A DNA stretch of 51,627 nucleotides. Source: a bacterium (GTDB lineage Bacteria > Bacillota > Clostridia > UBA1381). This document shows, piece after piece, positions 507 to 51,592 of the stretch (position 1 is the first letter of the stretch; every line of letters starts with the position of its first letter). The stretch covers positions 1 through 51,627 of the forward strand of contig JAUNPN010000006.1 of assembly GCA_030536655.1 (NCBI GenBank), read 5' to 3'. Below the pieces are notes generated by a model. It worked only from the letters and a program-made list of their open reading frames with translations. It was not told the DNA's origin and did not search any database. Made by a program: the position numbers and the translations under genes.

Positions 507-3500
507 ATGAAATTTTTCGGAAAGAAAGCCGCTGCGGCATTTATTACTGCGTTATCGTTAATTGCGTCAAGCGCGGCTCCGGTATTTGCCGAGGGTTCAA
601 AGGAAATGACGACTGTTCCGGCAGGCGATGGGGATCTGGCAAATGTCACGGGCGCATACCGTCCTTATCTTGACTGGCGCGACAGAGATCAGTTCAAAAT
701 GCCGAGTGAGAATGTAATCTATGTTTATGCAAACGAGGGAGAAAAGATTTTCTTTGGAAGTGATGTTACCGGTGCGAGTGACAGAAGCATTACGGCTGTT
801 GTAGAACCAAAGACGGGTTTTGAAGACGAAAAAACTATTAATTTTTCAGGTCAAACCTACCAAGGCGCAAGCATTGCGGTTACATTGCCTGAAGAAGGTA
901 AGACTGATACCGCAGTTAACCCGGAGAAGCTTAACACTGATAAGCCTGATACCACAGTTAACCCGGATAAGCTTAGCACTGATGAGCCTAAAATAGATTC
1001 TTTTGCTGATGGAAATACCCTTGAAACAACAACAGAACCGGACAGAAACAAAATCTATATGTTTAAAGTAACGGAGAACGGCGCGGGACATATCGCAAAC
1101 CGCGCGCAGGAGCAGAAGGGTCCTAACGGAGTTGGCGGAACGACAGACGGCTATGAGCCGCTCAGTTTTACCGCCCCGTATACGGGTACATATTCGTTCC
1201 GTTTCCTTTCGTCGGAGTATGATACCTCCGATATTCCGGATGTTGAGGCTATTCCCGCAAAAAATCGTACGTCTTATGCGACGATTGATTTTGACGGAGC
1301 CGAAGTTGGGAGTATGACCCAAAATGAGATGTATTATGAACAGAATTTGGGATATGTAAATTTCTATAATATATATGGAGTAAGCGGAGTAAGTAACAGA
1401 ACGGCGTCAATTGAAGCTGTAGCCGATGGAACAACCATAAATGTTCCGGTAACAGACTACAGTGAGGCAAAGATTTATCAGGCGGGAAAGAAATATCTGC
1501 ATAAAACAAGCAATAATGCGACCAAAGATGGAGGAAGCGTAGGTTTTACTCCGCTGCATTCTAATATAGAGCTGGAGATTGTATGGCAGAAAGCCGGAGA
1601 AGATACAAACAAGAGAACCTTATATGTTGTTCAGGGAGACAGAGAAACAAAAATTGATACTACGGATACAAATGTAAAGGTATCTAAAGTTACGTCGATA
1701 GGCGGATATCCGATTAAGGCGGGAGAAGAAGTCAGGGTCTTTGTTATGGGAGGAAATAATTCATGTGAATCTAAAATATATGAAATAAGATATTTCTATG
1801 ACAAAGCGGTTATCCCTGAGTATACAGCTCCGCCGCCTACGCCGGCTCCGGTTACTACGACAATTAATTTGGGACAGTTAACGGCTCAACCGGATATGTA
1901 TACAACTGATACAACGATTGGCGATGCATCGTTGTATTCGGCAACCTTCTATGGTGCTACTAAGAGTGATATGGGGAACGGAACTAATGATAAAAACAGA
2001 GGATATACGGTTACTGCAATGAGTGATGATGAAAAAACACTTTATCCGGGAAGTACAAATAAAGTGTATTTTATGGCTGCAATGCTGAATCTTGATGAAA
2101 ATTATGAAATAACAGCTCAAACTGCGGCTGTATTGGGCTTTACTCCTAAAATGGGAAAACCTTCATTGGAAATTACATGGGGGCCGACATCCAAAGCTAG
2201 ATTACACTATCAAACAGGAGCGAGTGAAGAAAAAACAGCTGATATATCTGAGTTAACAACAACAACAGTGCAGCTTACAAAAGATAAGACGACATATATA
2301 TTTTTTGATGGTGCTACAACCATATATGAACTTAAATACACTTACACGCCGGAGGATACAGTAACCGCTTCATCATCAGACGAAACGTCAGCGGTATCGC
2401 TTATGGAGACGGAAGCAACTCAGCAAGTGCTGTCACAATCGCGTTTCTGGGATTTCTATGATATTGAAGCAGGTGTTCAATATGCGGCAGGCAGCTTATA
2501 TGACAAATATTTAAAAGCAAATGCAGGAGTGACAACGTGTGAAGGATATATACCGCTTACAAATACAGGCTTTGAGTTCACTCCGGCATACAGCGGAAGT
2601 GTTGAAGCTATATTTGAAACAGATAATACGGCAGATTCGGAGCTTACTGTTTCACAAGGGGATAACACAGCAGTATCTGTCCCGGCAAATCGTGAAAATA
2701 CTGAATCGGCTAAGCTTGAGAATGTTGCTGCATATCAGCCTGTAAAGATTTATGCGAGCAAAGGAACTGACGTAAATCTGAAATCCATCCGTTACACAGC
2801 GGGAAGCAATCTTGCAAACCTTGCAAGAAAGGTAGACGACCCGTGGGCAAAGTCCCCCAGTGAGGTAGCGGCTTGGGATGTTACTGTGGCAAAGGCAACA
2901 ACAACTACTGTTTCTTCCACATCGTGGAATATATATAGCGAATTTAATGGAATTACGACAACAACAACTTCGAAAGATGGGAAGTTAAAAGTTTATTATA
3001 GTGGTACCGCTCCGGATAGTAATAACGAAAAAATGGCAATAAAATTAAATGCAGGCTCTTATAAAAACAGCAAAATTGAAAAGAATGTTTTTGAATACAC
3101 CCCTGAAGCGGATGGAAAAATATCAGTTACTGCTTATTCAACTGATGCGGCAAGAAAGGTAGTATTCACTACTGATCCGTCAACTATCTCGAATAACCCT
3201 ACAGACGGAGAGGGTTTTAGTGCAACAAGTACTGATAAAGTGTTTAGCTGTGATGTGAAAAATAATAACACAGTGTATATATATGCAACAGCCGGAGTGT
3301 ATTTTAAAACAATAACATTTACACCTAATGCCGGCAGCGGCACCACTGTCTACGAAGCTCAGCCGGGACGCGCATGGGCAGACATACTGTTCCTGAATGC
3401 GGGAATGTATCAGAGGTCAATGTATTCAAAGCTGAACATACTGACGAAGGACGGATTCCTTTACGATTTCAAGTTTAACGGCATACAGCCTTACGGCTTT

Positions 3501-5696
3501 GTATTCTATTCGAATAACCGCGGCTTCCTCTATGACCCGTACAGCCTTTCCGATAAGGAGTCATGGGGAGAAAGTGCAAATACCAACATGATTCAACCGT
3601 TGGAACGCTCGTTCCTCAGCAAAGGAAACTTTGACGTAGGTTCTGCCCCGGAGAAATTGGAGAAGGACGCAAACGGAAATCCGGTTATTTACAAAGATAA
3701 GCAGTTAAAGTCAAGAGTTCTTCCGAACTATCAGCCGGTAGATGCAGAGAGGGACTACACTCATAAGCTGTTCTTTAATAGACCTGATGAGGCGGCGCTT
3801 GAGGCATATACGGGAAACAGCAAATTAAAGGGTGAAGGAGACAATACCTTTGCAATACAAAAGACGATTCTTGACAATCTTACCTATGAAGGTCTGGGAG
3901 ATCAGCAGTTAAATCCGACTGCTGCCCCGGAGGCATCAGAAAAGCCTATGCATTACGGAACGATAGGCATCGGAGGCGAATTTAAGGTTAGTTTTACAGA
4001 CAAACAATGGAATGCTCTTAATACAATGGGAGCAAAGACCATCGGTGTAACGCTTGATTTCAGCGGGTATGAGCTTGATGAAAGTAAGAAGCCGGTTACT
4101 GTAAAGGACGATTCAAACTGGAATATATGGAAATCGAGGACAGATAGAAATCCAACCAATGCTGAAAAGAGCAACAAGGTAACTCTTACCGCGGCGATTG
4201 TAGGAGAAAATAAGAGCTATGCCATAGCATGGGACGGTAAGGACGCTTACGGCAATGTTGTTCCTGAGGGTAAATATAACAATAATGTCACAAGCTTTGT
4301 GGAACTCGGAACGGCGCATTTCCCGATTCTTGACGCGGAGCATAATCCGAACGGAATAAAGCTGCAGCTTGCGAATAATATCAGCTTAGCCGGAAGTACA
4401 AGCGAAACCCCGGCGGCAACGTCGATGCCGAAGGACATGGTATACTATAACAATTCGGCGGTAAGCCCGCAGATAGACGCGAGCGCTCCGACAAACTGGT
4501 TATACGCTAACTGGGCGAGTGCGGTCAAGACCCCGTCAAAGATAGGCGACGGTGAGAACCATGTTGACGGAGTACAGTCAAATTATAATACTAACGCTGC
4601 GGACGGCGCAATGAGGTTCGGAGGATATGATAAAGCTAACGATACAGCAATAAACAGTGATGCGGATGCGGGATACGGCAACTATGCCGCGCTTGACATT
4701 TGGACTAAGTACGAGGTCAAGCAGGACGCAACAATAGCTTTCGGCGTAAAGGCTGCGGAAAGCGTTCCGGCATATGTATCCTTTGTTGCCGAGGACGGTA
4801 CTGCTTCGCCTAAGGATAATAGCACCGAATTGACGGAATCACACTTGAAGTTTAGAGGTGGGGAGCTTCCGACAGAGGGCAGTAAAATTAAGGGAAAAGC
4901 TGGTATTTACGGAAATACAATTTCGACAGGCTTCCTTACCAAATTCAAAACAGACACAAACGTTACGGATAATTACATCACATGGGAAATCACGATTCCG
5001 AAAATTCAGGAAGGTGGAAAGAGCTATGGAGAAACATACATCAAGCTGCCCGTAGATACGCCGTATGAAACTGCATCGCTGGACGCTGCGGCGCTGTACG
5101 ATACGTTCGTTGGAGTGACGGAAGATACGGCTGCGGACGATGATGTATTAAACATAGGAGATGAAGTATCGGGTGACGAAAATGCCGATATGTCGTCGTC
5201 GGATACGGAGGTAGATATGACGCAGAAACCGGACGAGGGCGGCGAAAGCATTGCGGATGATGAAGCGGCACAGCAGTTCCTGCTGGAGGCAAGCGCTGAA
5301 ACTCAGACGGGAACTTCTGTAGACGCAAAGCTTGGCGTTGACGGAACTGCTGTACTAACAGATACAAGCGCTGAAAATGCGTCAGGTACGCAGATTTATA
5401 ATGCGGGCAGCATTCACAGAGTGTCGTTTGAAAATTTGACAGGCGACAGCCTTACATTGAAGATTAAGCAGCAAACTGTTGTTAGCGGCGGTACAGATGT
5501 GGTAATCGGTCTTGTAATCGACAACCTCTATGCACCGAATGCAACGGCAAAGGCAACCTACGGTGATGCGAATGTTGAACAGGCATACCGCGCGATAAAT
5601 GCAGCGGGATATCAGGATTATCTGAAAGTAGAGGGTAATAATAACGGCTACGATCCGAATAGTAACGAAAAATATATCACCAAAGAATCAAAATGA
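507..5696 (+). CDS. Giant secreted protein with repeated beta-sandwich-like modules (1729 aa)
   Basis: Exported protein of unknown function. Residues 1-28 form a classical signal peptide (KK, hydrophobic core, VFA/EG cleavage site). No LPXTG, SLH, dockerin or C-terminal membrane anchor is visible, so it is probably released or non-covalently held. At about residues 330-435, 515-620, 660-775 and 830-950 four divergent modules share a pattern: a phe-Thr-Pro strand (GFTP, GFTP, EFTP, EYTP), a middle strand pair, then VxIYA/VRVFV and a closing I.ELKYTY-like strand. This resembles carbohydrate-binding or Ig-like sandwiches but I cannot name a family. Proline/threonine linkers sit near 440 (PPPTPAP) and 1135. 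Residues about 955-1015 hold a conserved-looking RAWADILFLN...YSNNRGF stretch, and 1241-1257 (WDGKDAYGNVVPEGKY) is FlgD-Ig-like. A 14-residue tandem repeat starts at residue 134. A polysaccharide-binding or surface role is inference. Confidence 0.85.
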   Translation: MKFFGKKAAAAFITALSLIASSAAPVFAEGSKEMTTVPAGDGDLANVTGAYRPYLDWRDRDQFKMPSENVIYVYANEGEKIFFGSDVTGASDRSITAVVEPKTGFEDEKTINFSGQTYQGASIAVTLPEEGKTDTAVNPEKLNTDKPDTTVNPDKLSTDEPKIDSFADGNTLETTTEPDRNKIYMFKVTENGAGHIANRAQEQKGPNGVGGTTDGYEPLSFTAPYTGTYSFRFLSSEYDTSDIPDVEAIPAKNRTSYATIDFDGAEVGSMTQNEMYYEQNLGYVNFYNIYGVSGVSNRTASIEAVADGTTINVPVTDYSEAKIYQAGKKYLHKTSNNATKDGGSVGFTPLHSNIELEIVWQKAGEDTNKRTLYVVQGDRETKIDTTDTNVKVSKVTSIGGYPIKAGEEVRVFVMGGNNSCESKIYEIRYFYDKAVIPEYTAPPPTPAPVTTTINLGQLTAQPDMYTTDTTIGDASLYSATFYGATKSDMGNGTNDKNRGYTVTAMSDDEKTLYPGSTNKVYFMAAMLNLDENYEITAQTAAVLGFTPKMGKPSLEITWGPTSKARLHYQTGASEEKTADISELTTTTVQLTKDKTTYIFFDGATTIYELKYTYTPEDTVTASSSDETSAVSLMETEATQQVLSQSRFWDFYDIEAGVQYAAGSLYDKYLKANAGVTTCEGYIPLTNTGFEFTPAYSGSVEAIFETDNTADSELTVSQGDNTAVSVPANRENTESAKLENVAAYQPVKIYASKGTDVNLKSIRYTAGSNLANLARKVDDPWAKSPSEVAAWDVTVAKATTTTVSSTSWNIYSEFNGITTTTTSKDGKLKVYYSGTAPDSNNEKMAIKLNAGSYKNSKIEKNVFEYTPEADGKISVTAYSTDAARKVVFTTDPSTISNNPTDGEGFSATSTDKVFSCDVKNNNTVYIYATAGVYFKTITFTPNAGSGTTVYEAQPGRAWADILFLNAGMYQRSMYSKLNILTKDGFLYDFKFNGIQPYGFVFYSNNRGFLYDPYSLSDKESWGESANTNMIQPLERSFLSKGNFDVGSAPEKLEKDANGNPVIYKDKQLKSRVLPNYQPVDAERDYTHKLFFNRPDEAALEAYTGNSKLKGEGDNTFAIQKTILDNLTYEGLGDQQLNPTAAPEASEKPMHYGTIGIGGEFKVSFTDKQWNALNTMGAKTIGVTLDFSGYELDESKKPVTVKDDSNWNIWKSRTDRNPTNAEKSNKVTLTAAIVGENKSYAIAWDGKDAYGNVVPEGKYNNNVTSFVELGTAHFPILDAEHNPNGIKLQLANNISLAGSTSETPAATSMPKDMVYYNNSAVSPQIDASAPTNWLYANWASAVKTPSKIGDGENHVDGVQSNYNTNAADGAMRFGGYDKANDTAINSDADAGYGNYAALDIWTKYEVKQDATIAFGVKAAESVPAYVSFVAEDGTASPKDNSTELTESHLKFRGGELPTEGSKIKGKAGIYGNTISTGFLTKFKTDTNVTDNYITWEITIPKIQEGGKSYGETYIKLPVDTPYETASLDAAALYDTFVGVTEDTAADDDVLNIGDEVSGDENADMSSSDTEVDMTQKPDEGGESIADDEAAQQFLLEASAETQTGTSVDAKLGVDGTAVLTDTSAENASGTQIYNAGSIHRVSFENLTGDSLTLKIKQQTVVSGGTDVVIGLVIDNLYAPNATAKATYGDANVEQAYRAINAAGYQDYLKVEGNNNGYDPNSNEKYITKESK
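906..989 (+). repeat. In-frame tandem repeat, 2 x 42 bp (14 residues)
   Basis: Two adjacent 42-bp units inside the giant protein encode DTAVNPEKLNTDKP and DTTVNPDKLSTDEP. The unit is proline/aspartate/threonine rich and likely a flexible spacer between the N-terminal domain and the next module. The DNA copies are close enough for recent duplication. Confidence 0.85.
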
Positions 5697-17057: not shown

Positions 17058-17112
17058 TTAATTTCTTATCGGACAGGTATCGTTAATATTCATGAATAGT
17101 AATTCATTGCAG

Positions 17113-17173
17113 AAATAACTCTACGGTGTACGGTTGCTGTTTGCTGCTGTATTTTAAGTAGAGTTATTTTTTT
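17113..17173 (+). terminator. Terminator after ptsH
   Basis: A 12-bp perfect stem AAATAACTCTAC / GTAGAGTTATTT with a 33-nt loop and a T-run to 17173. The loop is unusually long and repeats TTGCTG. Confidence 0.7.
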
Positions 17174-17183
17174 CCAAACAATA

Positions 17184-17285
17184 ACACTGAAAATAAGCAG
17201 CGCATCTCACCCTTTTTCGTGATTCGAAGTATATATATACGGCTTCATCACTCAAGAGGGCAATCTGCTTGCTTCTTTTCAGTGT
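17184..17285 (+). ncRNA. Structured RNA element, copy A (upstream of uvrC)
   Basis: A 102-nt unit closed by a perfect 10-bp stem (ACACTGAAAA with TTTTCAGTGT). Inside are AGCAG/CTGCT, CCCTTT/AGAGGG, GTGAT/ATCAC and a terminal hairpin with the core GAAGTATATATATACGGCT. The same order of stems with different bases occurs at 32862-32972, so the structure is conserved by compensating changes. It begins 10 nt after the ptsH terminator and ends 52 nt before the uvrC ATG. AGTGTA of the closing stem can instead pair with TACACT at 17304-17309. I do not recognise a known RNA class; it could be a cis-regulator of uvrC or a free small RNA. Confidence 0.7.
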
Positions 17286-17287
17286 AA

Positions 17288-17309
17288 AAATAAGCTGCGC
17301 ATCTACACT
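17288..17309 (+). repeat. Partial second copy of the start of RNA element A
   Basis: AAATAAGCTGCGCATCT at 17288-17304 repeats AAATAAGCAGCGCATCT at 17191-17207 with one change, at a distance of 97 nt. It lies directly behind element A and could replace part of its structure. Confidence 0.65.
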
Positions 17310-17337
17310 TGCTGCTGCATTAACGGAGGGTAAATGC

Positions 17338-19227
17338 ATGAAGAAGGAATTTGATTTCGATACGGAACTGAAAAATCTTCCGGATTCGCCGGGAGTTTAT
17401 TTAATGCACAATCGTGACGGCGAGATTATATATGTAGGCAAGGCAAAGGTACTGAAAAATCGTGTAAGGCAGTATTTTCAGAAAAGCTCGAATCATACTC
17501 CGAAGGTTCGGGCAATGGTAGGAAATATCGCATATTTTGAGTATATTGTTACCGACAGCGAAACGGAAGCGCTTGCGCTCGAATGTACACTGATAAAAAA
17601 ACACAAACCGAAATACAATATTCTTTTAAAGGATGACAAGCATTATCCGTATATAAAAATAACCATAAATGAGCAGTACCCAAGACTGATGAAAGTCAGA
17701 AAGCTTCAAAGGGACGGAGCAAAGTATTTCGGACCTTATGTGGGACCGGGAACTATAAAAAACACTATAGATTTAATAAGGAGACTTTTCAAGCCGCCGT
17801 CATGTCACAGGCGTTTTCCGGAGGATATAGGAAAGGGCAGACCATGCCTTAATTATCATATAAATAATTGCTTTGCGCCTTGCACCGGACGTGTTTCAAA
17901 GGAGGAATACCGTGATGTATACTTTGAAATCTGCCGTTTTCTTGAGGGAAAGAGCAAGGGGCTTGTGAAGGAGCTTACCGAACAGATGCAGCAGGCGTCA
18001 AAGGAAATGCGCTTCGAAAAGGCGGCAGAGCTGCGTGACAAAATACGTGCGATAAATGAAATTGAGGAAAAGCAAAAGGTGATAAATGCCGATAAACAGT
18101 CTGACCATGATGTAATCGCTATTGCTGCGGAGGGGCATATTGCGTTTTGTGAGGTGTTTTTTGTCCGCGGAGGAAAGATAATCGGCAGGGAAAGCTATAA
18201 AATAGCGAATATAGATAATGCGGAAAAATCTGAAATTCTAACGGATTTTGTAAAACAGTTTTATCAGAACGCGGAATATATTCCGCCGGAAATCCTTACG
18301 GAAAAGGAAATCGAGGATAAGGAGCCTATAGAGGAATGGCTCCGTTCGATTAAACACAGAAAAGTAAGCATAAGCTCACCGCAGCGCGGTGAAAAGCATC
18401 ATCTTATGGAAATGGTGCATAAAAATGCAGTTACTGCTTTGGATAATCATAAAGTAAAGGTGCTTAAGGAACGTGAAAAAAATGCTGTTCTTGAACAGCT
18501 TAAGGAGGCCGCGGGACTTGAGGAGCTGCCCATGCGAATAGAGGCGTATGATATATCTAATATCCAGGGAGAAGATAATGTCGGCGGAATGGTTGTTTTT
18601 GAAAACGGAAAGCCGGCGAAGCGCAAATACAGACGCTTTAAAATAAAGTCCTTTAAGGGCGCGGATGATTATGCGGCAATGCGCGAGGTTATTTACAGAA
18701 GAATTGAGCATGGCAGAGAGGAGCAGTTTTTGATTGAAAACGGAAAGCTTAACCGCCATGACGCAAAGTTTCTGCCAATGCCGGATTTAATTTTGCTTGA
18801 CGGCGGCAAGGGGCATCTTAATACAATAAACGAGCTGTTCGAGATGATTGACGTTACAATTCCGTGTTTTGGACTGGTAAAGAATGATAAACACAGAACA
18901 AGGGGACTGATAGGAACCGAAGGCGAGGTTGCGCTCAGCCCGACAGGGGCGGTATTTAAATTGCTTACTTATATTCAGGACGAGGTTCATGATACGGCAA
19001 TTGAATATCACAGGAAGCTGCACGGACGGATAAAGTCCGAGCTTGAAGAAATTCCGGGAATCGGTGAAAAAAGACGCAAAGAGCTATTGACTAAATTCGG
19101 TTCGGTTGATAAAATAAAAGAGGCAGATATAAACGAGTTGGCCGACTGTGAGGGAATGAATATGAAGGCGGCGGAAACGGTTTATTATTATTTCCGAAGC
19201 AAGGGAGTAAATGACGGAAATGTTTGA
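17338..19227 (+). CDS. uvrC: Excinuclease ABC subunit C
   Basis: Dual-incision nuclease of nucleotide excision repair, 629 residues, cytoplasmic, acting with UvrA/UvrB. The N-terminal GIY-YIG domain (GVYLM...IIYVGKA) makes the 3' cut; a UVR motif near residues 200-235 binds UvrB; the RNase H-like domain (EAYDISN, LLDGGKGHL) makes the 5' cut; tandem helix-hairpin-helix motifs end the protein (IPGIGEKRR, CEGMNMKAA). The ATG at 17338 is preferred because GGAGGG precedes it by 7 nt; an upstream TTG in the RNA element is unlikely. First gene of a long run and preceded by structured RNA copy A. Confidence 0.98.
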   Translation: MKKEFDFDTELKNLPDSPGVYLMHNRDGEIIYVGKAKVLKNRVRQYFQKSSNHTPKVRAMVGNIAYFEYIVTDSETEALALECTLIKKHKPKYNILLKDDKHYPYIKITINEQYPRLMKVRKLQRDGAKYFGPYVGPGTIKNTIDLIRRLFKPPSCHRRFPEDIGKGRPCLNYHINNCFAPCTGRVSKEEYRDVYFEICRFLEGKSKGLVKELTEQMQQASKEMRFEKAAELRDKIRAINEIEEKQKVINADKQSDHDVIAIAAEGHIAFCEVFFVRGGKIIGRESYKIANIDNAEKSEILTDFVKQFYQNAEYIPPEILTEKEIEDKEPIEEWLRSIKHRKVSISSPQRGEKHHLMEMVHKNAVTALDNHKVKVLKEREKNAVLEQLKEAAGLEELPMRIEAYDISNIQGEDNVGGMVVFENGKPAKRKYRRFKIKSFKGADDYAAMREVIYRRIEHGREEQFLIENGKLNRHDAKFLPMPDLILLDGGKGHLNTINELFEMIDVTIPCFGLVKNDKHRTRGLIGTEGEVALSPTGAVFKLLTYIQDEVHDTAIEYHRKLHGRIKSELEEIPGIGEKRRKELLTKFGSVDKIKEADINELADCEGMNMKAAETVYYYFRSKGVNDGNV

Positions 19228-32865: not shown

Positions 32866-32972
32866 TAACAGAGAAATAAGCTGAGTATCCATCCCTTTTT
32901 CAGAGCTTGAAGTATAGGCGTACGGCTAAGCTCCTCAAAGGGACAGTCTGCTTGCTCCTTTCTGTGTTCCCG
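32862..32972 (+). ncRNA. Structured RNA element, copy B (between fabG and acpP)
   Basis: A 111-nt unit homologous to 17184-17285. Outer pairing is CGGG/CCCG plus ACAGAGA/TTTCTGT; inner stems are CCCTTT/AAAGGG and GAGCTT/AAGCTC; the terminal hairpin core is GAAGTATAGGCGTACGGCT. Compared with copy A, the stem GTGAT/ATCAC has become GAGCTT/AAGCTC and the closing stem has also changed on both strands, while loops and junctions (AAATAAGC, GTCTGCTTGCT-like) stay similar. It lies inside the fab operon 54 nt before the acpP ATG, so it may tune acpP expression or be excised as a small RNA. Confidence 0.72.
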
Positions 32973-33026: not shown

Positions 33027-33257
33027 ATGGACGAGTTTGAGAGAGTTAAGTCAGTCATCGTTGACCAGTTAGGTGCAGATGAAAGCAGCATTACATTAGA
33101 GTCATCATTCGTTGATGATTTGGGTGCGGATTCATTAGACATTGTTGAGCTTATCATGGGTCTCGAAACAGAGTTTGATATCGAAATTCCGGATGATCAG
33201 GCAGAGAAGATCAGCACTGTAGGTGACGCGGTGAACTATATTAAGGAAAATGCGTAA
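33027..33257 (+). CDS. acpP: Acyl carrier protein
   Basis: Carrier of growing acyl chains through a phosphopantetheine arm; 76 residues, acidic, all-helical. Attachment site Ser36 in [15 protein letters not shown] at 33027 is chosen (AAAGGGGGTG 6 nt before); a GTG at 33018 lies inside the Shine-Dalgarno. A hairpin CACTGTA/TACAGTG sits just before the ribosome binding site. It is flanked on both sides by structured or repeated non-coding sequence, which may set its high expression relative to other fab genes. Confidence 0.98.
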
Positions 33258-43440: not shown

Positions 43441-43803
43441 ATGATTACAAGACGTGAAGCAGTAGATTTTTGCCTGACTCTTGACGGCGCGTATGAGGAC
43501 TATCCGTTTGATGATACAAATTGGACTGTCATGCGTCATAAAGGGAATAACAAGGTATTTGCGTGGATTTTTGAGCGTATGGAGCATATCTGGGTAAACG
43601 TGAAGGGCAGACCGGAGTGGAATGATTTCCGGCGGCAGATGTTTGACTCTGTAGTTCCGGCATACCATTTAAACAAAAGACACTGGAATTCAATAATACT
43701 GGACGGCACAGTACCGGAAGAGCATATAAGGGATATGATTTCGGAAAGCTATGAATTGACAAGGTGTATAAAATCATCGGATAGCAAGTTTGGAAAAAGA
43801 TAA
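43441..43803 (+). CDS. MmcQ/YjbR family protein
   Basis: A 120-residue protein of the MmcQ/YjbR (CyaY-like fold) family, annotated as DNA-binding but of unknown role. Motifs: AVDFCLTLDGAYEDYPFDDTNWTVMRHKGNNKVFAW, VNVKGRPEWNDFRRQMFDSVVPAYHLNKRHWNSI, and GTVPEEHIRDMISESYELT. GGAGG lies 5 nt before the ATG. It follows the telA terminator by 16 nt and lacks a visible promoter. Confidence 0.93.
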   Translation: MITRREAVDFCLTLDGAYEDYPFDDTNWTVMRHKGNNKVFAWIFERMEHIWVNVKGRPEWNDFRRQMFDSVVPAYHLNKRHWNSIILDGTVPEEHIRDMISESYELTRCIKSSDSKFGKR

Positions 43804-43871
43804 GCACCGCTTCTCTTTTCCCAAACACATTGGTGAAAGGAGTTCGGATTATAAAAACGAAAGAAAATGCT

Positions 43872-46483: not shown

Positions 46484-46505
46484 TTTTTGCACTTCCTTTC
46501 GGGGA

Positions 46506-46535
46506 TTGTTTTCAGCATTAGTTTTAGCATTATAC
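46506..46535 (+). promoter_or_regulatory. Weak promoter candidate for the PL11 lyase gene
   Basis: TTGTTT at 46506-46511 and TTATAC at 46530-46535 with an 18-bp spacer, about 40 nt before the ATG. It overlaps the minus-strand spoVAC leader. Confidence 0.3.
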
Positions 46536-46548
46536 GAGAAATTATTCA
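46519..46548 (-). promoter_or_regulatory. Sigma G/F-type promoter candidate for spoVAC
   Basis: On the minus strand TGAATA (46548-46543), 17-bp spacer, AAAACTA (46525-46519). This matches TGAATA and five of seven bases of CATACTA, the forespore promoter pattern known from Bacillus. The start codon at 46483 lies about 30 nt downstream. Confidence 0.5.
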
Positions 46549-46573
46549 TGTTTTTTTGAGAACGGAGATAAAT

Positions 46574-49500
46574 ATGAAAAGATTAATAAGTATTGCGGCG
46601 GCTGCCGCAATGACAGTATCGCTTGTGCCGATATATTCCGCCGGTGCGGCAGTATCCGGAGAGATGGCTTCGGTAAACTACAAATACGGTGAAAATACGT
46701 ACATAAGACAAATGGAAAAACTCGACAGAGGACTGATTGCCGTAAATACCGGCAATGGTATATATATCGGATGGCGCTTGCTGGGAGATGAGTGCAGTGT
46801 TTCGGATATAAAAAGAGCGCCGTCGTTTGATGTTTACCGAAACGGCGAAAAAATTGCGGCTGTTACTGACAGCACAAACTATCTTGACACAGCCGGCAAC
46901 GCGTCAGACAGCTACAGTGTTGCGGTTAAGGATACAGACGAGTTATGTGAAGCAGTTTCGGTAAACAGCGGTTCTTATTTTGATGTTCATCTTGACAGAC
47001 CCGCGGCATTTGCGGTGGATTCGGAAACCTCGTATGAATATACGATAGGCGACTGTTCAACAGGCGATTTGGACGGTGATGGGCAGTATGAGCTTGTAGT
47101 GAAGTGGGACAGTAATCCTCAGGATAATTCAAACGGCGGAATTACGGGAAATGTTCTGCTTGATGCGTATGAGCTTGACGGAACAAAGCTTTGGAGAATA
47201 GATCTCGGCAGAAATATTCGTGCAGGTGCGCATTATACACAGTTCCTTGTCTATGACTTTGACATGGACGGCAAGTCGGAGGTAACATGCAAAACAGCTC
47301 CGGGTTCATTGGACGGTAAGGGCAATTATGTAAGTGAGGCAAGCTCGGTCGATGCAATAAAGGGTACAGATAATTCAGCCGTTTATGTAAACTCCGGCGG
47401 ATATATTTTGGACGGCGATGAATTTTTTACGGCGTTTGACGGAGAAACCGGAGCGGCGATTGACACGATTTACTACCCGGTTCAGCGTATATCAGCTGTA
47501 ATATGGGGAGATGACTTCGGAAACCGTGTTGACAGATTTCTTGCAGATGTAGCATATCTTGACGGTGAAAGACCGTATGCGGTATATTGGAGAGGTTATT
47601 ATCACGGACAGTCCGGTAAGGGTCAAAGAACGGGTATCTGTGCAATGAGCCTTGATGAAAACGGAAAGCTCAGCTGCGATTACTGCTTTGATACATATGA
47701 TACTTCAACAACAAAAGGCTATAAAGGCGTGAACGGCTATACTGACGGAAACGAAAATTATGTCGGACAGGGAAATCATAACCTTACTGTTGCAGACGTC
47801 GATAATGACGGAAAGGACGAGGTTATCTCCGGTGCGATGTGTATGGAGGTCAAAAATGACAATAATCTCATACCGAAATGGTGTACATTTAAAGGACACG
47901 GAGATGCTCTGCATATAGGTGACTATGACCCTACCCATGACGGATTGGAATTTTATACAGTTCATGAAGAAGGCGGAGGAACTGAAAGTGTAATCGGTCA
48001 GACTCTTGACTTTGGTCAGTCGGTAATCGATGCGAATACGGGTGAAATAATCTGGCACGTAAGCTGTTCAAAGGATACCGGAAGAGGTATGATGGCAAAT
48101 GTGGGCGCGGGCGGATATTATCAGGTTAATGCTTCAAGCGGTGCAGGCTCATATATTGCAAACGGCGGAAACAGCTTTACCGCGGCAAACCTTGGTCTGA
48201 GTGTAAACTTCCGTATTTTCTGGGACGCGGATATTTATGAAGAGCTGCTTGACGGAACAAATATAACCTCATGGAACGGCTCAAGGATGGAAACAATATT
48301 CAGTGCCGACGGCTGCGTCAGCGTGAACGGAACAAAGGCAAATCCGGCTTTGCAGGCGGACTTGTTTGGTGACTGGCGTGAGGAGGTATGCTATCCGCTT
48401 TCGGATAACAGCGCATTGAGGGTATTCACAACCACAGACGTAACAACGTATAAGCTTCCCACGCTTATGCACGACCCGGTGTACAGAAGCGGTGTTGCTG
48501 CCGAGCAGACTGCATACAATCAGCCGCCGCATATAGGATTCTATTTTGCGGACGAGATTTACCGCACGGCACTCGTTGGCATAGACGTTGGAGCACCGGA
48601 AAAGACAGAGTATAATGTCGGTGAAAGTCTGGATTTAACGGGACTTATGGTGACGGGAAGCTATGATGACGGTTCGAATTATGATATTGACGGATATTCG
48701 GTAACCGGTTATGACAGCATGAGGGCAGGAGAACAGGCGGTAACAGTAAGCTATCGTGGCTTTGAAAAGACTTTCATGGTTAATGTCAATACGGATTTCA
48801 CTGTGAATGAGAGTGGTTTGATAACCGGATATACGGGTACTGCGGCAAGGGCGATAATTCCGGAGTCTGTAAACGATGCTGAGATTACAGGTATTGCCGA
48901 AAATGCGCTTGACGGAACAGCAGTCAAAGAGCTTTACGTACATGATAATATAGAGAAAATTGAGCGGAACAGCTTTGATGGTATAAAGGTATACTGTTAT
49001 GAAGGCAGCGATATGCACATTTACGCACTCGAAAACGGAATCGATTTTGAGCTTATGGAGCGGGCTGCGAATGAGTATATAATAAATACCTCATTTGACG
49101 AGAGTGAATATGATAATTTCGGATTTTATCAGGAGAGCAGTACAAAAATTGTAGATAAAGGAAGAATAACCTATGGAGTAGGAGGCAGAACCAAAGGAGG
49201 CGGAGACGGATATAGCGGTTTTGATGTTGATGAAGCGGATGGAAATCGTTATTTGAGGGCTGTTCTGGGACGTTTCGGAACGAATGGAAGGCAGCCGTAT
49301 ATGACCTTTGCGGATTCACCGCGCCTTAGTGACAGCTATGATAATGTTATGAGCTTCAGGTTTATGATTCCGTATATAAAGCATGACGGTGCTTCGGAGC
49401 GTACAGAGTGCTATATGAATCTTAACGATTCAGCCGGAACAATAGATACTGTTTCAAAGGATAATCTGGGAATTGATTATGATACATGGTATTGTTACAG

Positions 49501-51592
49501 CCTGATTTATCATAAGGGAAGCTATTACAGAGCATTGTCGGATGCGGACGGAAATTTAATTTCGCTTACGAACCTCGGAGGTACGGCTGCGGATACCGGC
49601 ATTTCGGGAGCCGCGCTTAATCAGGTAAGAGGAACGGCATATAATAACAATCTGTACTATTCATATATTGCTATTGATGATTTGCAGATCTATTCAACAG
49701 ATTCGGCTATTTCTGAAATATATGTAAATGTAAGAGATAAAAACGGTGTGCCGATTGAGAGAGCGTCTGTGAAGCTCGGCGGATTTACAGTTGAAACAGA
49801 TGAGGACGGAATTGCGGAGTTTCTTGTTCCAGCGGGAATATATCATTCGGAAATAACCGCTGACGGCTATGAAGGTACGGAGCCGGTAGTTGCGGCATAT
49901 AAGAATGAAGTTATAAAGAAGGTACTTCTTGAAGTTATCAATGTTGAGGCAAATGGAGTTTCCGTTGACAAGACAGAGGCTTCCGCAGCAGTTGGGGGTA
50001 CATTCAGGCTCAATGCAGCAACGGAGCCGGAGAACGCGACTGAACGTGATTTTGTATGGTCAAGTTCAAATGAAGCTGTTGCAAAAGTGGATGCGGAAGG
50101 AAATGTCACGACTTTATCAGTGGGTACAGCCGAGATAAAGGTAATGCTTAAGGGTTACGAGGCTGTGTGTACCGTAACGGTATATGATACCTCTGCATAT
50201 GAGCAGATTCCGAATGCTGTAATTATTGAACTCAGTTCAGATAAAGCAGAAATTCCTTTAAGCGGAATCAATCAGACTGTATTGTGTGACGCTGTTGTAT
50301 ATGACCAGAATAATATTCCTATAGATAACGCTTATGTAAGCTGGTCATGCGACAAGGCGGAGATAAGAAACGGCAGACTGTATATCACTCCTGATACTGA
50401 GGAGGGAACGGCGCGGATAAACGCGGTATGCGGCGAGATAAGCGCGTCAAAGGATATTGAGCTTGTATCAATGCTTGCCGACGCGGATATATTTGTAAAT
50501 ACGACATATTCGGAAGCGGCTGACGTACAGGTAAGACAGCTTCCGGAGGCAATGATTGAAACAAGAGGTGATCTTACTTATTACGGCGGTTCAAGAGACG
50601 GCAGCGTCAAGGCAGAGATTGGAGTGTGGGCTGTTGAGGATGAAAACGGAAACATATATATGAAGGGAGGTTCGTCAAATTGGAGTTCGGCAAACAGAAA
50701 TTCATATATAAACATAGATAAGGCGCCGTCGGCTTATGAAGCCGGAAAACAATATGTATTTGAAACGGATATTATGTTTGACAAAACATCTCCGAACGCC
50801 GTAACGCTGTCAAACGGTATTGTGCTGTCTGTAACGGCATTGGGAGCAGAGAGCGGAAAATGGTATCATTACGCGCTTGTATATGACGGACAATATACGC
50901 AGTACTTATTTGATGAAAACGGCAGGCTTGTTTCAAAAAAGCTTCTTACGAACACAAGTACGGAGCCGATAAGCCGTTTGAATTTCGGTGTAAGCGGAGA
51001 AGAAGGAAATACTTATTTGGATAACACAAGCTATTATGCAAAGGAAAAGGCTGTTTCAACTCTGGCAGTAAAGGTGTATGATACCGAAAACAATGCGGTC
51101 GAGGATGCAAATGTACAAATAGGCGCACTTGAACAGCTGACAAACGCGCGCGGCAAAGCGAGCTTTGAGCTTTTGCAGGGTGTGTATACGATAGAAATTT
51201 CAACAGAAGGCAACAGAACGCTTGAAAAGGATATAGTACTTTCCGGCGAGGATGAGAGCGTGAACATAGTTTACGATCCGGCGTCAATTCCAACGCCGAC
51301 GCCGACGCCCGAACCCGGTATGAGCTATAAGCTTGCCGCTGCCGGAAACGGAGGAAAGGTAAGTGTTGAATTAAGCGCGTATGAGGGCTTGGGTACGGAA
51401 GCTGAAAAGACAATTTATATTGCGTCATATAAGGACGGCAGGCTGCTGAACGTTGCGGCATCGACCGATACGGCAGTGTCGGGATTCAGCTTTAACTCAG
51501 AAGCGCCGGCAGAGGCTGATAAATGTGTATGCATGGCATGGGATAGGAACGGCAAGCCGATTGCGGCAGCGGTTACCTTAAGGAACCACTGA
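46574..51592 (+). CDS. Secreted rhamnogalacturonan lyase, PL11, with multiple accessory domains (1672 aa)
   Basis: Extracellular lyase cleaving the rhamnogalacturonan-I backbone of pectin. Signal peptide residues 1-25 (AGA/AV). Residues ~30-640 are the PL11 beta-propeller: RQMEKLDRGLIAV, GNGIYIGWRLLG, calcium-binding D-x-D-G repeats (GDLDGDGQYELVVKW, YDFDMDGKSEV, ADVDNDGKDEV) and LQADLFGDWREEV. Then an Ig-like group 3 domain (669-740), a BspA-like leucine-rich repeat (745-835), a LamG-like module (832-1045), a carboxypeptidase-regulatory-like domain (1046-1115), a BIG2 domain (1121-1200), an Ig-like region, a second LamG-like and a second regulatory-like domain, a PTPTPTP linker and a C-terminal 90-residue domain. 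GGAG is 6 nt before the ATG at 46574. The last codons and stop lie in the 51-nt repeat. No anchor motif visible. Confidence 0.95.
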   Translation: MKRLISIAAAAAMTVSLVPIYSAGAAVSGEMASVNYKYGENTYIRQMEKLDRGLIAVNTGNGIYIGWRLLGDECSVSDIKRAPSFDVYRNGEKIAAVTDSTNYLDTAGNASDSYSVAVKDTDELCEAVSVNSGSYFDVHLDRPAAFAVDSETSYEYTIGDCSTGDLDGDGQYELVVKWDSNPQDNSNGGITGNVLLDAYELDGTKLWRIDLGRNIRAGAHYTQFLVYDFDMDGKSEVTCKTAPGSLDGKGNYVSEASSVDAIKGTDNSAVYVNSGGYILDGDEFFTAFDGETGAAIDTIYYPVQRISAVIWGDDFGNRVDRFLADVAYLDGERPYAVYWRGYYHGQSGKGQRTGICAMSLDENGKLSCDYCFDTYDTSTTKGYKGVNGYTDGNENYVGQGNHNLTVADVDNDGKDEVISGAMCMEVKNDNNLIPKWCTFKGHGDALHIGDYDPTHDGLEFYTVHEEGGGTESVIGQTLDFGQSVIDANTGEIIWHVSCSKDTGRGMMANVGAGGYYQVNASSGAGSYIANGGNSFTAANLGLSVNFRIFWDADIYEELLDGTNITSWNGSRMETIFSADGCVSVNGTKANPALQADLFGDWREEVCYPLSDNSALRVFTTTDVTTYKLPTLMHDPVYRSGVAAEQTAYNQPPHIGFYFADEIYRTALVGIDVGAPEKTEYNVGESLDLTGLMVTGSYDDGSNYDIDGYSVTGYDSMRAGEQAVTVSYRGFEKTFMVNVNTDFTVNESGLITGYTGTAARAIIPESVNDAEITGIAENALDGTAVKELYVHDNIEKIERNSFDGIKVYCYEGSDMHIYALENGIDFELMERAANEYIINTSFDESEYDNFGFYQESSTKIVDKGRITYGVGGRTKGGGDGYSGFDVDEADGNRYLRAVLGRFGTNGRQPYMTFADSPRLSDSYDNVMSFRFMIPYIKHDGASERTECYMNLNDSAGTIDTVSKDNLGIDYDTWYCYSLIYHKGSYYRALSDADGNLISLTNLGGTAADTGISGAALNQVRGTAYNNNLYYSYIAIDDLQIYSTDSAISEIYVNVRDKNGVPIERASVKLGGFTVETDEDGIAEFLVPAGIYHSEITADGYEGTEPVVAAYKNEVIKKVLLEVINVEANGVSVDKTEASAAVGGTFRLNAATEPENATERDFVWSSSNEAVAKVDAEGNVTTLSVGTAEIKVMLKGYEAVCTVTVYDTSAYEQIPNAVIIELSSDKAEIPLSGINQTVLCDAVVYDQNNIPIDNAYVSWSCDKAEIRNGRLYITPDTEEGTARINAVCGEISASKDIELVSMLADADIFVNTTYSEAADVQVRQLPEAMIETRGDLTYYGGSRDGSVKAEIGVWAVEDENGNIYMKGGSSNWSSANRNSYINIDKAPSAYEAGKQYVFETDIMFDKTSPNAVTLSNGIVLSVTALGAESGKWYHYALVYDGQYTQYLFDENGRLVSKKLLTNTSTEPISRLNFGVSGEEGNTYLDNTSYYAKEKAVSTLAVKVYDTENNAVEDANVQIGALEQLTNARGKASFELLQGVYTIEISTEGNRTLEKDIVLSGEDESVNIVYDPASIPTPTPTPEPGMSYKLAAAGNGGKVSVELSAYEGLGTEAEKTIYIASYKDGRLLNVAASTDTAVSGFSFNSEAPAEADKCVCMAWDRNGKPIAAAVTLRNH

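Follow-up and report, generated by a model that had tools for sequence, protein, structure and literature searches.

Hairpin elements in the window and their neighbouring genes

The window, which is the whole stretch of 51,627 nucleotides that was analysed, includes two full-length copies (A and B) of a hairpin element, shorter copies and the adjoining genes. The relevant features, all on the + strand, are as follows:

17107..17177, +, terminator-like hairpin belonging to the HPr gene 5' of copy A, AATAACTCTAC...GTAGAGTTATTTTT (sequence; aligned upstream regions of relatives)
17182..17287, +, copy A, complete hairpin element 5' of uvrC, older subfamily (fold z -8.1; covariance-model matches)
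17288..17325, +, truncated second copy (AAATAAGCTGCGCATCT...) directly 3' of copy A (sequence match to the 5' consensus AAATAAGCNGCGCATCT)
17324..17340, +, native-looking SD (CGGAGGG) and uvrC start codon, ATG at 17338 (sequence; UvrC domains)
17338..19227, +, uvrC, gene 3' of copy A (Pfam UvrC_RNaseH, GIY-YIG, UVR, HHH)
32866..32970, +, copy B, complete hairpin element lying between a fabG-like gene and acpP, from an older and diverged subfamily (fold z -3.5; covariance model 86.2 bits)
33027..33257, +, acpP, gene 3' of copy B (Pfam PP-binding)
43787..43854, +, third copy in the window, derived from subfamily 1 by internal deletion, GTTTGGAAAAAGATAAGC-ACC-GCTTCTCTTTTCCCAAAC and tail CATTGGTGAAAGGAGTTCGGATTATA (covariance model, sequence)

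The fold of copy A is a nested hairpin with an energy of -39.9 kcal/mol (z -8.1), a value reached by none of 200 shuffles. Its outermost helix, ACACTGAAAA/TTTTCAGTGT, has 10 bp, in agreement with the nested hairpin and 10-bp closing helix that an earlier note had placed at 17184-17285. Copy A scores 116.6 and 117.4 bits with two covariance models (R1 and R2, respectively), and relatives of it were found at other genome sites by both BLAST and covariance models. Copy A lies 3' of the HPr gene and 5' of uvrC; the terminator-like hairpin of the HPr gene is kept at the same position in many relatives, and copy A is located between this hairpin and uvrC. The truncated copy at 17288..17325 is probably a remnant of a tandem partner of copy A, judging from its match to the 5' consensus.

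Copy B folds like copy A (-35.0 kcal/mol, z -3.5). The third copy, which the earlier note did not include, consists of a 41-nt near-perfect hairpin and an SD-bearing tail (CATTGGTGAAAGGAGTTCGGATTATA); its covariance-model match covers 43787-43827 (33.5 bits). The window also contains two very long ORFs, at 507-5696 (1729 aa) and 46487-51592 (1701 aa), the former without a Pfam match.

Conservation of the fold

Between copies A and B, both strands of the stems have changed and pairing is retained, as the earlier note had observed. A covariance model of 30 pairs was built from 19 copies of the same genome, in which two-sided compensatory changes occur at 15 of the pairs. Among 55 diverse homologues, two-sided changes are seen at 27 of the 30 pairs; shuffled controls give 20.7±1.6 and slid structures 15-21. 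The changes occupy 288 cells of the alignment, compared with 78±8 after shuffling. In the same alignment 88.4% of cells pair, a value that falls to 36-53% when the partner is slid by 1-3 columns. The closing stem and the middle stems are free in sequence; an internal loop around GCATCTCACC / GGCAATCTGC is conserved, as is the hairpin (G)AAGTAY..RTACG. The earlier note had also considered a decayed mobile repeat without conserved pairing: the mobile repeat agrees with the reading developed below, but the loss of pairing does not, as the pairing is conserved.

The Rfam scan that the note had proposed yielded no known RNA family, as nothing but tRNAs exceeded the gathering cut-off in the whole window, and sub-threshold scans of copy A and of one homologue (L067) gave chance matches only. 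The hairpin family is undescribed in the literature found, a body that does not cover the supplementary tables of large RNA-motif surveys.

Copy number and distribution

The element is far more abundant than the two copies of the earlier note. A DNA search of the 3.49-Mb genome (G000; 98% complete) gave 51 matches, and the 19-copy covariance model detects about 98 copies above 40 bits together with short internally deleted derivatives. Copies are single or form head-to-tail arrays with a period of about 111. In the short derivatives C51, C152, C93 and C191 of this genome, the hairpin ends and the tail are retained, and several stand in tandem with full copies.

A second covariance model, constructed from 55 diverse members, was used for a distribution scan. 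Within the same family, 64 of the 70 genomes carry copies, and inside one genus their number ranges from 0 (G025) to 76 (G067). Weak matches occur in 10 of 25 other genomes of the order, and in a class-wide sample of 391 genomes there are matches in 22 outside the order, with several copies in some. The named relatives that carry the element are uncultured gut Clostridia, e.g., RGIG9115 and Candidatus Ornithomonoglobus. A phage or plasmid origin was considered and rejected, as 2.9 million viral contigs contained no match to the exact pattern and plasmid records gave no BLAST match.

Location relative to translation signals

The orientation of the element follows that of the neighbouring genes: in longest-ORF calls, which are uncurated, the ratio of co-oriented to oppositely oriented ORFs is 87:15 downstream and 78:25 upstream. 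Immediately left of the element, 54 of 152 copies have an SD core in their flank, compared with about 18 in neighbouring windows; two thirds of copies have no clear SD on the left. When the two flanks of 44 subfamily 1 copies are joined, an SD at normal spacing appears in 21, compared with 2-8 in shifted controls.

The 3' end of the element itself carries an SD, and in young subfamilies a start codon at a fixed distance often comes next (+44, +45, +51 or +54, depending on the subfamily). Subfamily 1 consists of a GTTTGG..CCAAAC hairpin followed by GCATTGGTGAAAGGAGTTCGGATTATA, which includes the SD, and often further on, at constant spacing, by NNN-ATG; other copies have AGTTTG at that place, the letters of the element's own left end. 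In subfamily 2 the hairpin is TAACGTG..CACGTTA, and the tail is composed of a small G+C-rich hairpin and AATGGAG, followed by the start codon.

The inverted repeats at the ends of the subfamily 1 hairpin and the existence of an internally deleted derivative would be features of an ordinary MITE, mobilised by a DDE transposase that acts through terminal inverted repeats. However, the right repeat is followed by a tail of 28 nt, the end sequences vary freely between subfamilies and still pair, so that there are no terminal inverted repeats of fixed sequence, and the only target duplication suggested is the shared GGAG, in which the element itself also ends. An ordinary MITE is improbable.

A cis-regulatory leader RNA, riboswitch-like or protein-binding, in which the sense fold of the 5' UTR controls downstream translation, would also be consistent with the place of the element next to the SD and ATG, with its sharing the orientation of the downstream ORF, and with its strong covariation and conservation of unpaired nucleotides. 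Against this, the downstream genes are unrelated and the positions of the element are not conserved. Comparison of about 200 downstream proteins from many genomes revealed few matches between genera, and ten of them analysed with Pfam include GDSL lipases, GTPase Der, a GNAT acetyltransferase and unknowns; no association with one gene family or pathway was found among the downstream proteins or at orthologous loci. Together with the strand analyses described below, this makes a leader RNA unlikely.

Empty sites and orthologous loci

Evidence for insertion is provided by one empty/filled pair, derived from MAGs, at the argD-argF junction. The empty site in G063 reads ..GACGAAGTTTTGGAGGAAATATAAAATG, and the filled site in G066 (L254) reads ..GACAAGGTTTTGGAG-[141 nt]-GACTAAAATG; the two genomes are near relatives, with argF products identical across the 130 residues used. 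The 141-nt insert is located between the SD and the ATG and ends in GGAG; GGAG is present at both borders. The position of the cut is ambiguous, as GGAG or A is common to the borders of the insertions. In relatives, argD overlaps the start region of argF; the insert, with its left end GATTAA, provides a new stop codon for the overlapping argD (GAG GAT TAA) and a new SD for argF. Insertion also occurs into the GGAG of an earlier copy's tail, giving nested copies (L065, L207 and L215).

A covariance-model scan located the element at only 1 of 30 orthologous loci of acpP, and likewise 1 of 30 of uvrC have it, in each case that of the window's own genome; one other uvrC locus gives a weak, partial match of 20 bits. 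The element precedes argF at 1 of 14 loci. Some older insertions are common within a genus, such as those at an atpD-like gene in G063 and G066 and at another gene in G009 and G036, a pattern that inheritance would produce.

Gene-specific regulation of uvrC or acpP was rejected, the element being missing at 29 of 30 orthologous loci of each gene. This upholds the view of the earlier note, drawn from the unrelated downstream genes, that the element is not a gene-specific leader. The alternative offered there, a trans-acting or widely used RNA class, is disfavoured by the empty site and by the lineage-specific insertions at uvrC, acpP and argF, and also by the strand on which the fold is most stable and the mostly uncompensated changes in young subfamilies (see below). 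For a family of trans-acting small RNAs, transcribed from either strand, the many copies with a single conserved fold and the stability of the opposite strand might be cited; the occurrence of up to 100 similar copies by unrelated genes, together with the empty site, fits a repeat better, and we regard such a family as highly improbable.

Strand preference of the fold and selection on copies

Several comparisons indicate better folding of the strand opposite the mRNA. Over the 55 homologues, the mean folding energy is -48.3 kcal/mol for this strand and -39.1 kcal/mol for the sense strand, and the opposite strand is better in 50 of 55; the z values against dinucleotide shuffles are -7.5 and -5.7, respectively, with the opposite strand better in 48 of 55. 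The same holds for 20 of 20 loci from other families of the class. For copy A the difference is small, the two strands being nearly equal (-39.9 for the sense and -41.7 for the opposite strand). By inspection of the sequences, mismatches A-C, U-C and C-U on the sense strand correspond to G-U and tandem G-A on the opposite strand. These results suggest that the structure has probably been selected in a mobile form, either single-stranded DNA or antisense RNA, rather than in the leader transcript.

Counts of G-U and A-C give no sign of selection on sense RNA, in either the diverse alignment (51 and 67, respectively, with the conserved 21-97 pair left out) or the young copies, and such counts are not decisive; the strand was therefore judged by folding energies and shuffles. 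For the leader RNA discussed above, the poorer folding of the sense strand and the lack of a G-U excess over A-C on that strand in young copies (48 and 59) are further points against.

In the young subfamilies, changes at paired sites comprise 13 that are compensated, 48 to G-U and 59 to A-C on the sense strand, and 56 others, i.e., they are mostly uncompensated and symmetrical between the strands. Paired sites are less variable than unpaired sites in young copies (0.032 and 0.060, respectively), and the folds of these copies are a little better than expected from random mutation; thus, some constraint on single copies is possible. As the changes in young copies are mostly uncompensated and their folds near random expectation, the covariation lies mainly between subfamilies. 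This suggests that the structure is selected at the level of active, spreading copies, and that single copies then drift.

The better fold of the opposite strand and the strong orientation bias relative to mRNAs would also be compatible with SINE-like retrotransposition via an RNA intermediate from that strand. However, that strand has the conserved tail on the 5' side of the hairpin, which would require transcription to begin outside the element, and we consider this route very unlikely.

Search for a mobilising enzyme

Candidate mobilisers were sought with the Pfam profiles PF01797 (Y1, RAYT-type) and PF04986 (Y2, IS91/Helitron-like). PF01797 has no match in G000, despite a completeness of 98% and about 98 copies of the element, and is also missing from G003, G011, G014, G023 and G030, each with at least 13 copies; G025 has zero copies yet two PF01797 matches. 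PF04986 was found in 1 of 37 genomes, which is not G000. With both profiles absent from G000, RAYT and IS91-like mobilisers were rejected.

This result bears on a REP-like element moved by RAYT (TnpA-REP, an HUH Y1 transposase), which would otherwise be in line with the hairpin, the high copy number, the asymmetry of a single-strand type and the border tetranucleotide GGAG. In addition to the distribution of PF01797, the length of REPs, given as 20-40 nt (PMC3733652), stands against this explanation, and there is little chance that it is correct.

Comparison with known repeats

The small interspersed repeats BOX, RUP and SPRITE of Streptococcus pneumoniae are over-represented between convergent genes (PMC3049150). 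Like the present family, they are dispersed hairpin-forming repeats beside genes of all functions, and they have been judged parasitic; BOX also resembles it in its variable modular or tandem copies. Unlike them, the present family is co-oriented with the downstream gene, is often located between SD and ATG and has its own SD. BOX and RUP are, by their described features, the nearest kin in kind. Many dispersed hairpins, insertion differences between relatives and the absence of a functional class among neighbours place the family within the broad kind of small interspersed repeats, with a target unlike those described.

REPs (PMC3733652, PMC8266576) are alike in being high-copy palindromic repeats with a short border tag and likely single-strand recognition. 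The present hairpin differs in being several times longer (about 110 nt), in its several conserved internal loops and in residing in a genome without a Y1 transposase; in place of a short palindrome of 20-40 nt with a GTAG or CGTC tag, it has a GGAG border tag in subfamily 2 only.

The bcr1 repeat of the Bacillus cereus group, a mobile structured repeat of about 155 nt, is similar in being mobile, structured and from Bacillota, at the level of its general description, but creates a TTTAT duplication, whereas the borders of the present family are GGAG or A..TG. In integron attC sites, structure is kept while stem sequence varies, the bottom strand folds and recombines, and tandem arrays are formed. 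The present family is comparable in its structure kept despite varying stem sequence, in the fold of the bottom strand and in its tandem arrays. In contrast to attC, there are no cassettes, the target is the SD/start region and the end boxes are reversed (GTTTGG..CCAAAC instead of RYYYAAC..GTTRRRY); no RYYYAAC..GTTRRRY R box is found at the foot of the hairpin, where GTTTGG..CCAAAC, TAACGTG..CACGTTA and others occur.

A probable mobile hairpin element at translation starts

Copies A and B with good probability represent old and diverged members of a family of mobile hairpins that are non-autonomous and about 110-140 nt long. The copies mostly have the orientation of the downstream gene, and many separate the native SD from the start codon. 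The right end of the element brings a replacement SD, and in one subfamily the left end GATTAA has provided an overlapping upstream gene with its stop codon; with the replacement SD and the supplied stop codon, insertion may be nearly harmless.

For mobility, a recombinase acting in trans might recognise the strand complementary to the mRNA in its folded state, as single-stranded DNA or, less likely, antisense RNA, and join it at targets GGAG|..ATG (subfamily 2) or A|NN(A/T)TG (subfamily 1). The strand in this proposal is deduced from folding energies only. Selection on mobility would keep the structure fixed, and single copies would drift afterwards.

The chances are about even that the family represents a new class of mobile element targeting translation-initiation regions, in which an opposite-strand hairpin is recognised by an enzyme, is inserted between SD and start codon, and by bringing a replacement SD and an upstream stop codon spreads through essential operons without silencing them. 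Small bacterial repeats are usually thought to survive at the least harmful sites, e.g., between convergent genes. This hairpin family is the opposite: many copies lie within the few bases of a gene that are most sensitive, and are apparently tolerated via the signals brought along. With as many as 100 natural 5' UTR insertions in a single genome, the family is a resource for studying how translation deals with such insertions, and it opens a search for a mobilising enzyme. It is also a warning that strong covariation alone is no proof of a host-serving RNA.

Outside the family of the window's genome, a distinct subfamily with a GAACAAACTT / AGTTTGTC stem is present in other families (L088; L172 of G052; L321 of G456; L326 and L327 of G289). 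A terminator-like hairpin comes next in several of its copies, and this subfamily may have a preference for gene ends. At two further loci, L061 (G010; 1368-1473) and L082 (G019; 1501-1632), the 3' arm is interrupted by a different palindromic repeat.
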